From a virus, in the IMG/VR virus record IMGVR_UViG_3300037042_000551, positions 1 to 26,286 of that record: DNA of 26,286 nucleotides, one strand, 5' to 3'. The position numbers were made by a program, and so were the translations under genes. Shown here piece by piece: positions 4,870 to 21,746 of this stretch. Numbering within the stretch: the stretch's first letter is position 1; every line of letters starts with the position of its first letter. The notes below the pieces were generated by a model that saw only the letters and a list, made by a program, of their open reading frames with translations, had not been told where the DNA came from and searched no databases.

Positions 4870-5098
4870 GCTACTTTTAGTCGTTTTTCGTGTAGCAAAG
4901 TAGCAAAAGTAGCAGAGTACATTCTCAAATACGGGGGTGTAAAGTTAAATACATCTTCGTATGGTGCCATAGAGAAGAAAGAGTCTAAATTTCGCTTTAG
5001 TATTAATATGTCTATCTGCTACTTGCTACTTTGCTACTTTGCTACTTTTGCCCCTGTTTTGCTACTTTTTGCTACTTTTAGACCACTCTTTTTGCTAC
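4870..5098. repeat. GCTAC iteron cluster, candidate replication origin
   Basis: The pentamer GCTAC, mostly within TTTGCTACTTT, occurs in plus orientation at 4870, 5018, 5025, 5033, 5041, 5061, 5071 and 5094, and in inverted orientation at 4892, 4900 and 4909. The copies at 5018-5045 are spaced 7-8 bases apart. TGCTACTTTT at 4869-4878 and AAAAGTAGCA at 4905-4914 can form a 10-bp stem. AAAATATTTT lies next to it at about 4860-4869. The cluster fills the 247-base gap directly after the primase and ATPase genes, as expected for an initiator-binding origin. A repressor- or RNA-level role is also possible. Confidence 0.6.
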
Positions 5099-6640
5099 GT
5101 CTTTCCCATTTAAGTCTACAAACGTAATCTCTCCACGACTTTTAATCTCATCTATAATCTTACGTCTTTCGTCAACTGATAATCCTCTAAAATACATAGG
5201 ACTCTTTTTGTTAAGCCAATCTTTATCAATGACAACTCCAACGTCCAACTTTTCTAATATTTTACCTGCTAGTTTCTCAGCAACACTGACTTGATTGGCA
5301 TACTTTGTACTTGCCCCTAAATCTAATGATATACGCTGTTCCAAATAAAAGAATGCCAACTCAACAGCGCATTCAGCATGACGCAACTCAATATTAGTTG
5401 AACCTTCAAAGATAGCAACTGTTGCTGCCAATCTAACACTATGTTCATACAAACGACTGACAAAACCTTGCCATTCACTGTATGTTGTAGTTTGCTCACG
5501 CTTAATAAGATTGTCAAACTCAGCCAGTTTATCACATGCTTCATCTGTCATTGATATTGTAGGCAAGTTAAGCTCTAATTTACTATCTTCATAATATGAT
5601 TTTTTCTGTGATAATAATTCATAGATCCTATCGTGAAACAATCCTAATTTGTTTTGACTAGATTGAATCTGCGCTTTCCTGTTTCTATCAAGTTCTGGCA
5701 CATCCCAGTAATCAGTATGAGTGATGAGTAAACGATGCACAAAACCCTGTTCACTGTAAATCTTATTACCTAACCAATCTTTAGCCATTGCCTTTTGAAG
5801 CAAGAATAACATAGTAAATCTACGATCTTTAATATATTTTGACTCAATGCCTGTTACCTTTTCTATTGGCGCTCCGTCCCAAAGATTAGTCAATGTAGTA
5901 ATCATTTCAAATCCTTTACTGTTGTTCTTACCATCCTGAAAAGTATGACCATTAAAGAACTCACCAGCTTCACTACTGCTCATACCCCCAAACGGAACAT
6001 TGTCAAGAAATTCAATCAATCCATTTCTTGTTCCAGTTGAAAGACGATATTTGAAACTGACTGGTTTTTGTGGTTCTGTTCCTAAACTGTTTACTAACCC
6101 TTCAAATCGTTGCTTATCTTGTAAATCTTCTGCTTTCATTGAACGCATTAATTTGTCATACTCTTTGTTCCAAACAGCAATAGCTAACTTGTAGTTTTGT
6201 ATTTCATTGCCATATCTTATCTTTTCATCTTCTTCAAAACGCTTGATACCACGATCTAACATCTTATAGATTGTAGATTTCATACCAGCTGTTGGAGCTA
6301 ATGCAATAAAATAATCTGTTGTTGGTATGATTGATCCACCGAAAAAGATAGGATCAACGTTGTATAGATTTTGTGTAGCAAAGTTTACTGTTCCTAGTAT
6401 AGCTTGTATAGCCATTTCTTCAGGCACATTATTCACTTCTTTTAATGCCTGCATAGTGTATGATAGTAAAGGGGGCAAAAACTTGAACTTTAATTTGTTT
6501 GTTTTAACTGCTTCTAAAACCTTCTTATTGTTCTCATCTTTACTGTTATTTTCAGTAAAAATGTCTAACTTCGGCGATAATATTTTGTTTTGAGATTTAT
6601 GTAGATTTTCTCTTAATCGTTTCAAATCTTCTGGTGTCAT
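5078..6640 (-). CDS. DUF3987-type replicative ATPase/helicase
   Basis: The 520-residue protein has a P-loop-like APTAGMKST at residues 115-123 and an acidic segment GGMSSSEAGEFF at 219-229, the pairing typical of the DUF3987 primase/helicase family. The N-terminal 50 residues are charged and likely helical, and the C-terminus has a winged-helix-like look (KSPMYFRGLSVDERRKIIDE). In this family the protein works with a primase domain to unwind and prime phage DNA. That fits the four-base ATGA overlap with the PrimPol gene upstream. The last codons (DVAKRV) lie inside the first GCTAC iteron of the non-coding repeat cluster that follows. The family call is good; helicase activity is inferred. Confidence 0.8.
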   Translation of the reverse strand: MTPEDLKRLRENLHKSQNKILSPKLDIFTENNSKDENNKKVLEAVKTNKLKFKFLPPLLSYTMQALKEVNNVPEEMAIQAILGTVNFATQNLYNVDPIFFGGSIIPTTDYFIALAPTAGMKSTIYKMLDRGIKRFEEDEKIRYGNEIQNYKLAIAVWNKEYDKLMRSMKAEDLQDKQRFEGLVNSLGTEPQKPVSFKYRLSTGTRNGLIEFLDNVPFGGMSSSEAGEFFNGHTFQDGKNNSKGFEMITTLTNLWDGAPIEKVTGIESKYIKDRRFTMLFLLQKAMAKDWLGNKIYSEQGFVHRLLITHTDYWDVPELDRNRKAQIQSSQNKLGLFHDRIYELLSQKKSYYEDSKLELNLPTISMTDEACDKLAEFDNLIKREQTTTYSEWQGFVSRLYEHSVRLAATVAIFEGSTNIELRHAECAVELAFFYLEQRISLDLGASTKYANQVSVAEKLAGKILEKLDVGVVIDKDWLNKKSPMYFRGLSVDERRKIIDEIKSRGEITFVDLNGKDVAKRVV

Positions 6641-7560
6641 ATAATGTTCCTACTTGCCTTTGTTTGATAAAATAAATCATCATTTGTGGAGAATTTCTTA
6701 AATCCTCCCCTGTCTTTAATCATTTTAATGATAGTTCCAATAGTGCAAACTCTGCCATTGTGTTTACTTTTCATTAATTTTTGATATTCTCCCTTTTTTG
6801 ATTCGGGATAATAATATTTCATTATTGCTATACCATCACTATAACCAACTGTATTACAAAATCCCCAAGTAACTCTGATCCAAGTATCATACTCTAATGT
6901 TGGATAATACTTTTTAAGTTCCTCTGCTATTTTGTTTGCCTCTTCACCATCAATAGATTTTGGTTCATACTGTACTATCTCTGGTTTGTAGTTATTTTCT
7001 TGGTCTCTATCTAAAATAGCCCATTCCAATAGTTTCATTGGAACTTCACAAACATTAACTTCGCTTGGTTTTCTAAGCCATTGATAGTTTATGTTTGGAT
7101 CTATTTTATTATCTGGATGTAAACTTGGAGGTAAAACACTTTGACACGATACATCATATGTGCCCCAGCGAAACTCTAATGCTTGATGTTTACCATCAAG
7201 TTCTGCTTCTGGCTTTATTTTTTTGAAAACTGTGGGAATATGTTCCCATAATTCTTTAGGAACACTGAAAGCCATTTGACAACGACCTACTTTATTACTA
7301 GTCCACATTACAGTGTCAAAACTATTAAAGTCAATTTTGATGTGTTCGTTCCAGTAATCCCAAGCCCAAGGTCCATCAAAATCAATAGCAAGTATGCCAT
7401 TACTTTGTGGACCTAATATGACGCCAATGTTATCCGATTGCGGTATCTGTTCTAGTGAGTAAGGTTTTTTGTGCCAATCTTTATATCTTGGACCCTTCTC
7501 ACCATATGGTATTTTACAGAAACCCCAACCTTTTAGTAGTTGAAGTTCACTGTCTTTCAT
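6637..7560 (-). CDS. PrimPol-type primase/polymerase N-terminal domain protein
   Basis: The 307-residue protein opens with a domain resembling the bifunctional primase-polymerase N-terminal family: GWGFCKIPYGEKGP near the start, the metal-binding pair in ILAIDFDG (Asp60 and Asp62), TSNKVGRCQMAF at 88-98, and LEFRWGTYD followed by SVLPPSLHP at 141-149. Residues from about 205 onward (EEANKIAEELKKYYP, YDTWIRVTWGF) resemble a PriCT-2-like helical C-terminal domain. It would synthesise primers for the adjacent ATPase. The start overlaps the upstream coiled-coil gene by ATGA and the stop overlaps the ATPase by ATGA, so the three form one translationally coupled operon. Confidence 0.8.
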   Translation of the reverse strand: MKDSELQLLKGWGFCKIPYGEKGPRYKDWHKKPYSLEQIPQSDNIGVILGPQSNGILAIDFDGPWAWDYWNEHIKIDFNSFDTVMWTSNKVGRCQMAFSVPKELWEHIPTVFKKIKPEAELDGKHQALEFRWGTYDVSCQSVLPPSLHPDNKIDPNINYQWLRKPSEVNVCEVPMKLLEWAILDRDQENNYKPEIVQYEPKSIDGEEANKIAEELKKYYPTLEYDTWIRVTWGFCNTVGYSDGIAIMKYYYPESKKGEYQKLMKSKHNGRVCTIGTIIKMIKDRGGFKKFSTNDDLFYQTKASRNII

Positions 7561-7772
7561 GTTCTTTCCAAGGCTATTTCTTTAATTAAAGTTAAAGTAT
7601 TATTAAGTTTTTCAATCTCATATGCGACCATACCTGGATCAACCATATTATCTTCACGTTCATTTAATTCTTTTAATTCTTTAGTTATACTGTATAATCC
7701 ATCATTAATACCACCTAATTGTGATTTAATATCTTTTAATGCCATCAGCATACATTGTTCAAATTCTGTCAT
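7557..7772 (-). CDS. Small coiled-coil protein, first gene of the replication operon
   Basis: The 71-residue protein begins MTEFEQCMLMALKDIKSQLG. It contains a heptad-like stretch (ITKELKELNERED) and a second helix (YEIEKLNNTLTLIKEIA), consistent with a dimeric coiled coil. A clear ribosome site, AAAGGAATAGAC, precedes the ATG, and the stop overlaps the primase start by four bases. It is the first gene after the structured RNA at 7836-7972, so that RNA could be its leader. The function is unknown; an accessory or regulatory role in replication is inferred from the operon. Confidence 0.7.
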   Translation of the reverse strand: MTEFEQCMLMALKDIKSQLGGINDGLYSITKELKELNEREDNMVDPGMVAYEIEKLNNTLTLIKEIALERT

Positions 7773-7835
7773 GTCTATTCCTTTAGAGGCACTTAGGCCC
7801 GTTAATTAATCAGCCCAAAATAGAATTATTTTTTG

Positions 7836-7972
7836 ATTTCTCGCAGGGCAACCCGTCTTGCACGGGGCGGGGATATAAGTTACCACACTCTATCCAGCCG
7901 AAAGCCCCAGTGAAGGGGCATCGGGGGTTTGTGGTAAATGCGAGAAATAACGTCGGAGATCTAAAAACCGAC
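7836..7972 (-). ncRNA. Structured RNA with predicted pseudoknot (new family candidate)
   Basis: This non-coding segment is visibly richer in G and C than its surroundings and shows nested and crossing complementarity. P1 pairs 7836-7845 with 7939-7948, 10 perfect pairs. A hairpin pairs 7852-7856 with 7862-7866. A second helix pairs 7871-7875 with 7891-7895. Its loop, TTACCACA at 7880-7887, pairs perfectly with TGTGGTAA at 7930-7937, giving an H-type pseudoknot. Inside that, 7898-7901 pairs with 7921-7924 and 7904-7908 with 7915-7919. A separate hairpin pairs 7952-7956 with 7968-7972. The minus strand is assigned from neighbours and from the GGACTAAATA element that ends five bases upstream; every helix is Watson-Crick on both strands. 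It may be a free RNA or a leader for the replication operon. I recognise no Rfam family. Confidence 0.65.
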
Positions 7973-7976
7973 ACAG

Positions 7977-7982
7977 TATTTA
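7977..7982 (-). promoter_or_regulatory. GGACTAAATA element before the structured RNA
   Basis: The minus strand reads CAGGACTAAATACTGTGTCGG. The hairpin that begins the structured RNA starts at 7972, five bases past the element, where a T4-like late promoter would place its start site. The stop codon of the upstream gene is embedded in it. The same GGACTAAATAC string occurs at about 8357. Confidence 0.4.
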
Positions 7983-8165
7983 GTCCTGCAAATCAGTCAC
8001 TAAATTTTCTATGTAATCACTGTACGCATCACTTTCAAACAGTTGTTCCGCACGACTTGTGGGAACAATGTTTGCCAAAGCACAGTAAAAGATTGCCTTA
8101 TCTACATATCGTTCATGTATAGTTAAGTATTTGTCTATTAATATTGTTTCATTTTTAGTCAGCAT
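7980..8165 (-). CDS. Small helical protein of unknown function
   Basis: The 61-residue protein begins MLTKNETILIDKYLTIHERY and is predicted helical and acidic at its C-terminus (DAYSDYIENLVTDLQD). There are no recognisable motifs. Its ATG lies inside the end of the 56-residue gene upstream, an 11-base overlap, and AAAGGAGCAGGGCT provides a ribosome site. It is the last gene before the structured RNA, and its stop forms part of the TAAATA element there. The function is unknown. Confidence 0.6.
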   Translation of the reverse strand: MLTKNETILIDKYLTIHERYVDKAIFYCALANIVPTSRAEQLFESDAYSDYIENLVTDLQD

Positions 8166-8325
8166 AGCCCTGCTCCTTTGCGAACTTACATAGATAGTCT
8201 AGTTCCTCGTCCCAGACACTTACCATGTTCCAATCACCGCCAATGATGAAACATTCACGATTCTCTATTGCGTTAACAATACGTTCGTTTAGTTCTACAA
8301 TATTTTGTATCAATTTATTAGTCAT
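8155..8325 (-). CDS. Small 56-residue protein of unknown function
   Basis: Translating the minus strand from the ATG at 8325 gives 56 residues beginning MTNKLIQNIVELNERIVNAI and ending CKFAKEQGYAD. The ribosome site GAAAGGCAAAAAT and a GGACTAAATAC element upstream support it, and the next gene overlaps its end by 11 bases. The protein is a long amphipathic helix followed by a short Trp/Asp segment (GGDWNMVSVWDEELDYL). I do not recognise the family. It fills what would otherwise look like a 200-base gap in an operon of small genes. Confidence 0.65.
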   Translation of the reverse strand: MTNKLIQNIVELNERIVNAIENRECFIIGGDWNMVSVWDEELDYLCKFAKEQGYAD

Positions 8326-8356
8326 ATTTTTGCCTTTCGTTTCAATGTCTATAATG

Positions 8357-8362
8357 TATTTA
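8357..8362 (-). promoter_or_regulatory. GGACTAAATA element before small-gene pair
   Basis: The minus strand reads TAGGACTAAATACATTATAG, in the 44-base gap between the 144-residue gene and the 56-residue gene. CATTATAG directly after it could also serve as a host -10 element. Confidence 0.35.
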
Positions 8363-8369
8363 GTCCTAG

Positions 8370-8804
8370 TTATAAGTCGTGAGAAAAATCTCCGTCAGGG
8401 AATTCACGTTTATATTCTTCCCAAGCACATATATCATGTAATTCTTTGTAATTCTTAGCAAACAGTTGATAAGCATCATCTTCACTAGTATCAGTCAAAT
8501 TAAGAATTACATTAACTAATCCTAACTTTAACCAATTCTTACAGGGAAATCCACTTATGAATTCGGGAATAAAAGCAACTGTTGATTGAGAATTATCTAT
8601 GTCATAGTAAACCCATAAATAATAAAAATGTGTTTTACAATATTCTGAATCATCTGTGCCATTTATTGTTGCAGGCTCCCAGTCACTTTTGTAATATTCA
8701 GGCCATGCATCACTCCAGTATAAATCAATGATGTCTCTGATTCGTTCGGGAGGCATTGTACCATATCTTAGTATGTTGAATGTCTTTAGACTTTCATTAT
8801 CCAT
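8370..8804 (-). CDS. Conserved-looking acidic protein, unknown function
   Basis: I start this gene at 8804 (MDNESLKTFNILRYGTMPPE, 144 residues), where the ATG overlaps the upstream stop as TAATG. An upstream TTG at 8840 would add 12 residues inside the preceding gene and is less likely. The protein is rich in Trp, Tyr and acidic residues (DLYWSDAWPEYYKSDWEP). It has one cysteine each in DSEYCKTHFYY, GFPCKNW and DICAWEEYKREF, and no classical motif. It is the last of a run of coupled small genes transcribed from the 10-kb promoter. The function is unknown. Confidence 0.7.
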   Translation of the reverse strand: MDNESLKTFNILRYGTMPPERIRDIIDLYWSDAWPEYYKSDWEPATINGTDDSEYCKTHFYYLWVYYDIDNSQSTVAFIPEFISGFPCKNWLKLGLVNVILNLTDTSEDDAYQLFAKNYKELHDICAWEEYKREFPDGDFSHDL

Positions 8805-21740: not shown

Positions 21741-21746
21741 TATTTA
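21741..21746 (-). promoter_or_regulatory. GACTAAATA element before the portal gene
   Basis: The minus strand reads ACGACTAAATAGTAGATACTTAAGG, about 25 bases before the portal ATG, in the 47-base gap after the Zn-ribbon gene. Confidence 0.35.

Follow-up and report, generated by a model that had tools for sequence, protein, structure and literature searches.

We describe a structured phage RNA that probably represents a new class of translational leader, of the riboswitch or operator kind, and that would act in cis ahead of an operon encoding a Prim-Pol primase/polymerase and a DUF3987 helicase-like protein. It lies in an IMG/VR virus record of 26,286 bases from an uncultured, water-borne phage; this whole stretch of DNA is hereafter called the window. 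Terminase, portal and capsid genes are present in the window, and its minus strand carries all the main genes. The preliminary description had located a compact RNA ahead of the primase operon, and it does precede the 71-aa ORF, PrimPol and DUF3987. Gene order on the minus strand is 61-aa ORF, RNA, 71-aa ORF, Prim-Pol, DUF3987, as follows.

8165-7980, minus strand: upstream 61-aa ORF, whose stop codon is the TAA of the TAAATA box
7976-7986, minus strand: box GGACTAAATAC, directly before the RNA and containing that TAA
7557-7772, minus strand: 71-aa ORF, the first gene after the leader, of no known family and with no Pfam match
6637-7560, minus strand: Prim-Pol primase/polymerase (PF09250)
5078-6640, minus strand: DUF3987 helicase-like protein (PF13148)

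Three of the helices drawn earlier are present at the stated positions and perfect: a closing helix of 10 bp (7836-7845/7939-7948), one of 8 bp (7880-7887/7930-7937) and one of 5 bp (7871-7875/7891-7895). The region is indeed richer in G and C than its surroundings, with a GC of 0.53-0.55 vs 0.30-0.36 for the flanking DNA and 0.377 for the whole window. Folding energy relative to dinucleotide-shuffled sequence had been named as a decisive comparison, and the RNA folds far better: on the minus strand, segment 7830-7975 has an MFE of -53.5 kcal/mol vs -37.0 +/- 3.5 for the shuffles (z -4.73), and none of 200 shuffles was as good. The same comparison on the plus strand gave a z of -4.57. We judge from the sequence that the functional strand is the minus strand, the RNA being read from 7972 to 7836, because of the direction of the genes, the G.U pairs and the continuity of the leader with the next gene. 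These G.U pairs, found in the 5' hairpin and in the pseudoknot stem of one homologue (L090, below), are A.C mismatches on the other strand.

Homologues were collected in two ways. A PrimPol search led to two phages, L001 (74% identity) and L003 (about 60%). Terminase relatives were also collected, of which 40 were searched and nearly all read, as 62 contig pieces. The same RNA, called type A hereafter, is present in L003 with 91% identity. The terminase relatives yielded one more copy, in L090, whose divergence makes it informative; L003 and L090 are both related IMG/VR phages. A covariance model built on the window alone matched exactly these three (window, L003 and L090) in 931 kb of related phage DNA, with E values of 1.1e-37, 3.5e-29 and 2.6e-7. 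Core z scores are -4.93 in the window, -5.24 in L003 and -4.77 in L090. The distribution appears narrow: searches with PrimPol, DUF3987 and the 71-aa protein yielded only two further phages, a loose pattern run over all IMG/VR returned 101 stretches, among the 80 listed of which only the two contigs already known fold, the type A RNA was not found in GTDB genomes, and phage and plasmid records had no relevant DNA similarity to it. Further type A copies are to be expected among metagenome contigs. No relative was recovered when GTDB genomes were searched with the terminase in order to identify a host. The elements of the RNA, and their state in the homologues, are given below.

7952-7972, minus strand: 5' hairpin GUCGG...CCGAC, in all three homologues, with a U.G to U-A change
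7836-7948, minus strand: pseudoknotted three-way core, closed by P1 (7948-7939/7845-7836)
7880-7937, minus strand: P2, pairing 7937-7930 (upstream strand) with 7887-7880 (loop of the pseudoknot hairpin), fully paired in L090 though rewritten
7898-7924, minus strand: P3 hairpin, CCGA/UCGG plus GCCCC/GGGGC, with UGGGGAC-UUCG-GUCCCCA as its substitute in L090
7871-7895, minus strand: pseudoknot stem GGAUA (7895-7891)/UAUCC (7875-7871), GGAUAAA/UUUAUCU in L090
7852-7866, minus strand: P4 hairpin CCCGU-GCAAG-ACGGG, with an invariant loop and a covarying stem (CCUGU/ACAGG, CCGAU/AUCGG)
7846-7852, minus strand: invariant strand GUUGCCC between P4 and P1, the same in all three homologues
7817-7832, minus strand: hairpin AAAAUA-AUUC-UAUUUU just 3' of P1, with an A-U to G-C change in L003

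Sequence comparison establishes the predicted fold and its pseudoknot, with covariation, and a conservation that ends at the ATG. When the window is compared with L003, no stretch of the region is as well conserved as the RNA core, which reaches 0.98 in its best 60-nt step and exceeds the neighbouring coding DNA. Compensatory changes are present in L003 (U-A to C-G in P1, C-G to U-A in P4). L090 keeps the architecture while most of its stems are rewritten. Around the same GCAAG loop, its P4 has CCGAU/AUCGG where the window has CCCGU/ACGGG, and two P4 pairs have changes on both sides. P2 is ACUUCAC/GUGAAGU in L090 and UUACCACA/UGUGGUAA in the window. As P2 joins the pseudoknot-hairpin loop to the upstream strand, nothing speaks more strongly for the H-type pseudoknot than the total replacement of this helix; when the loop is shuffled, a match of this kind arises by chance with a probability of about 0.014 for the 7-bp P2 of L090 and about 0.004 for the 8-bp P2 of the window. 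An inserted hairpin made MAFFT misalign the L090 P2, and this helix was compared by hand, in a scripted way. In the alignable part without large gaps, 48 of 48 cells pair and 3 pairs change on both sides, vs none when the partners are slid; with three sequences the covariation statistics are modest, the score on this part being reached by 22 of 500 shuffles. Covarying pairs, whose absence the preliminary description would have held against the RNA, are thus found in P1, P4 and the post-P1 hairpin among the three members. Invariant single strands of the core are GGCUGG, CNCCGCC, UGCAAGA and GUUGCCC.

The conserved unit extends beyond the end point first assigned to the RNA and reaches the ATG at 7772. 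Over the 63 nt that separate P1 from this ATG, the window shares 90% identity with L090, vs 48% over the first 120 nt of the next gene, about the level of unrelated AT-rich DNA. The 71-aa protein is 94% identical in L003; in L090 an unrelated-looking 90-aa ORF stands in its place, and the two first-gene proteins of the window and L090 have no convincing relationship. An abrupt end of conservation at a start codon characterises cis-acting leaders, and no terminator was detected in 7500-8500. The element thus has the features of a translational leader: it occupies the 5' region of a gene, is conserved to the start codon and lacks a terminator. A small RNA acting in trans, processed or transcribed here and serving host take-over or regulation within the phage, would fit the compact, autonomous fold with its own upstream box, and another likely small RNA, this one with a terminator, is present in the same phage (10404-10240). 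We nevertheless hold this to be quite unlikely, given the lack of an intrinsic 3' terminator and the conservation of the 63 nt separating the core from the ATG.

As described earlier, a sequence element does lie just before the RNA: GGACTAAATA (7986-7977, minus strand), four bases ahead of the 5' hairpin. All 11 leaders identified in this work, of the two designs described here, follow such a TAAATA[C/G] box, and no sigma-70 match was obtained at the box ahead of the RNA. The AU-rich TAAATAC box, the 5' hairpin and the core could instead mark an RNase cut and protect the 5' end of the replication mRNA. Such a processing or stability element would agree with the overlap of the box with the stop codon of the preceding gene in type A and type C, which implies that the RNA may sit within a longer transcript, and with the hairpin that comes right after the box in nearly all leaders. 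It would however explain neither the invariant internal loops (UGCAAGA, GUUGCCC) amid rewritten stems nor a conservation reaching the start codon, and we regard it as unlikely. In the window as a whole, TAAATA boxes number 19 on the coding strand vs 5 on the other, often intergenic and before structured RNAs (on the minus strand, for example, at 21746, 19442, 16628, 10407, 8362, 7982, 4841 and 4165); the box is reminiscent of a T4-like late promoter (TATAAATA) or of a processing site.

L001, whose primase is the closest to that of the window, is devoid of the type A RNA and has a different leader ahead of its primase operon. This design, called type B, was found by contig scans in eight phages, at the following positions.

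L097, 3887, plus strand: type B leader
L113, 4303, plus strand: type B leader
L119, 9233, plus strand: type B leader
L123, 13833, plus strand: type B leader
L143, 12961, plus strand: type B leader
L144, 9314, minus strand: type B leader
L149, about 5840-5715, minus strand: type B leader
L151, 16525, plus strand: type B leader

All eight are at or near the start of an early or replication operon. A Prim-Pol match was found in three type B phages (G001, G032 and G034), the members of this type whose downstream replication genes were identified, and, counting the window, six out of six Prim-Pol-bearing contigs have a type A or type B leader ahead of the primase operon. The type B sequences are unrelated to type A. 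Following a TAAATA[C/G] box and a 5' hairpin, they form a three-way junction of 54-65 nt in which two hairpins have loops that can pair. These kissing loops involve 5-8 bp of unrelated sequences (CUGAACC/GGUUCAG, UUGAACC/GGUUCAA, UUGGUAG/CUACCAA, UUAGCG/CGCUAA), with p values from 0.0002 to 0.017 each. In all eight leaders, the strand ahead of the first hairpin can pair with the downstream Shine-Dalgarno region, as in CUCCUAAAAAUGU/ACAUUUUUAAAGGAG, and these masking helices are better than those of shuffled sequences (p 0.002-0.048 each; Fisher 2e-9, or 3e-5 with one member per sequence group). In at least five type B members, the 5' strand of P1 overlaps the anti-Shine-Dalgarno strand (for example AUGU of AUGUCAA). 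Since closing stem and masking helix share these bases, the folded junction and the masking helix would compete, as in translational riboswitches.

Purine riboswitches are three-way junctions with two pairing hairpin loops, and this fold is common to them and to type B, to which alone the likeness applies. Type B differs by its kissing of 5-8 Watson-Crick pairs and by a junction devoid of the purine-binding core, and no Rfam match was obtained for type B leaders as far as they were tested.

The primases of the window and L001 are 74% identical and their leaders differ, whereas those of the window and L090 are 31% identical and share the same leader type. As the leader type does not follow the primase, the element appears to be a module of its position rather than the partner of one primase. 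Autoregulation by PrimPol is disfavoured on the same ground, leader type being independent of primase similarity. A role at the DNA level, with the stem-loops serving as a single-strand origin or a primase loading site, would suit a position directly before PrimPol/DUF3987. It is very improbable in view of the G.U pairs in the stems, of the Shine-Dalgarno-related pairing in type B, and of leaders being swapped among similar primases and common to dissimilar ones. The preliminary description had proposed a ribozyme, a cis-regulator of replication genes or a small RNA. Cis-regulation of the replication operon is the best supported of the three, given a conservation that goes no further than the start codon, the lack of a terminator, and the analogous leaders that relatives carry close to the start of the corresponding operon; there is no indication of a ribozyme, and the missing terminator leaves a free small RNA unsupported.

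In the type A leader, the platform strand UAUUUU has two possible partners, AAAAUA just upstream or GGAAUAG at the Shine-Dalgarno, the second giving a further candidate helix.

7775-7823, minus strand: candidate Shine-Dalgarno-masking helix, CUAUUUU (7823-7817) with GGAAUAG (7781-7775), incompatible with the AAAAUA hairpin

In L003 the upstream pairing is kept by a compensatory change (UAUUCU with AGAAUA), and the masking helix is Watson-Crick (CUAUUCU/AGAAUAG). Compared with shuffles, the masking duplexes of the three type A members have p values of 0.13, 0.010 and 0.13, that of the window being 0.13. Under equilibrium folding, the accessibility of the window Shine-Dalgarno was 0.43 vs 0.44 with shuffled upstream sequence, hence not lower. 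Equilibrium masking of the Shine-Dalgarno, first supposed for all such leaders, therefore fails for type A, and in the window's own RNA masking is a weakly supported hypothesis.

From these comparisons we infer an effect on translation, switching between two states and the existence of a ligand, which could combine as follows. A cis-acting structured leader, some 200 nt long (7976-7773, minus strand), would belong to the PrimPol/DUF3987 operon, with a 5' hairpin, then the pseudoknotted three-way core, then a 63-nt platform leading to the Shine-Dalgarno and start codon. The core would be stabilised or destabilised by a bound molecule (a metabolite, or a phage or host protein), or would act by its folding kinetics alone. 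Two partners would be open to the strand UAUUYU, the upstream AAAAUA/AGAAUA and the Shine-Dalgarno region (RGAAUAG), and the core, by deciding between them, would set translation of the operon. Such a mechanism with two alternative pairings is strongly, if indirectly, supported by the strand shared between the type B closing stem and masking helix.

No Rfam family accounts for the type A RNA, and to that extent the novelty claimed for it earlier stands. Rfam 15 gave no match in the window at gathering thresholds; at E<=10, the only one was a chance terminator-like hairpin (10.7 bits vs 40), and no credible family appeared for the homologues L003 and L090. A new self-cleaving ribozyme might be suspected from the pseudoknotted core, invariant loops and AU-rich flanks. 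We consider it extremely improbable: small ribozymes, twister included, had no Rfam match at E<=10 in the window, L090 or L003, no conserved unpaired site beside P1 recalls a known cleavage site, and no cleavage motif was recognised. Twister was considered for the UGCAAGA loop and rejected, since there is no model match and the helix order is wrong; an HDV-like topology is excluded by P1 and P2, which are nested and not crossing.

Returning to a translational leader, the closest functional parallel so far described would be the T4/RB69 gene 32 operator, a 5' leader pseudoknot through which gp32 exerts autogenous control (PMC3014915, PMC535899). In both, a pseudoknot lies in the leader of a gene for phage DNA replication, 5' of the ribosome binding site. 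The T4 pseudoknot is about 28 nt long and is followed by an unstructured, UUAAA-rich stretch, whereas type A has a 113-nt core with three more helices, a structured platform whose 3' part is conserved and partly paired, and a primase operon downstream, with no sequence match. The first gene also differs, being the ssDNA-binding protein in T4 and a 71-aa ORF lacking a Pfam match here. With translational riboswitches, type A shares a compact core, invariant unpaired strands, possible alternative Shine-Dalgarno pairings and a conservation ending at the start codon; it differs by the absence of an Rfam riboswitch match and by its narrow distribution in one phage group. A glutamine riboswitch, a glnA-type aptamer linked to tmRNA, is known in marine phages such as Melnitz (PMC9004378); it is likewise a structured regulatory RNA of an aquatic phage, but type A is not in Rfam.

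Phage cis-regulatory RNAs of such complexity are seldom described: among viral pseudoknots, that of T4 gene 32 was perhaps the sole case of translational autoregulation that a 2010 review could cite (PMC3014915). In the present phage group, elaborate leaders number at least 11 and fall into two unrelated architectures, at or near the starts of early or replication operons, which points to a strong selection for controlling the switch to DNA replication at the level of RNA. We tentatively raise, as a somewhat doubtful extension, that two unrelated, interchangeable riboswitch-like classes gate translation of the replication operon on an infection-stage signal, and might be new phage-specific riboswitch classes or operators for phage or host RNA-binding proteins. 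These RNAs are small and directly testable, and a ligand could be found.

Other features were observed in the same genomes. Across 5078-7836, comparison of the window with L001, L003 and L090 reveals mosaic exchange: related phages have swapped the leader, the first small ORF, PrimPol and the helicase (DUF3987 or VapE-like) independently of one another. Most type B leaders have as their first downstream gene a member of a protein family of about 56 aa with the pattern L..ELE.A......D...V..W.EEID.I, which has no Pfam match among the members tested; in type A phages a member lies two genes upstream of the RNA (window 8366-8200). In-frame repeats of LCFLLCRYFGLS and VFVLLAVPLFRL at 2-372, the start of the window, probably encode a repetitive structural protein on the opposite strand. 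Finally, the RNA at 10404-10240 (minus strand) is likely a stand-alone phage small RNA, with similar ones in L098 (8766, minus), L097 (8185, minus), L149 (6057, minus), L144 (10396, minus) and L151 (15560, plus). It comprises a TATAAATACA box, a closing stem UGUAGGCAGAUAG/CUAUCUGUCUACA, a conserved GCCAU apical loop, UUCCU and an intrinsic terminator at its end, to which its Rfam matches at E<=10 are confined. Within the same phage, the AAGGAAUA ribosome binding sites are possible pairing partners for its UAUUCCUU.
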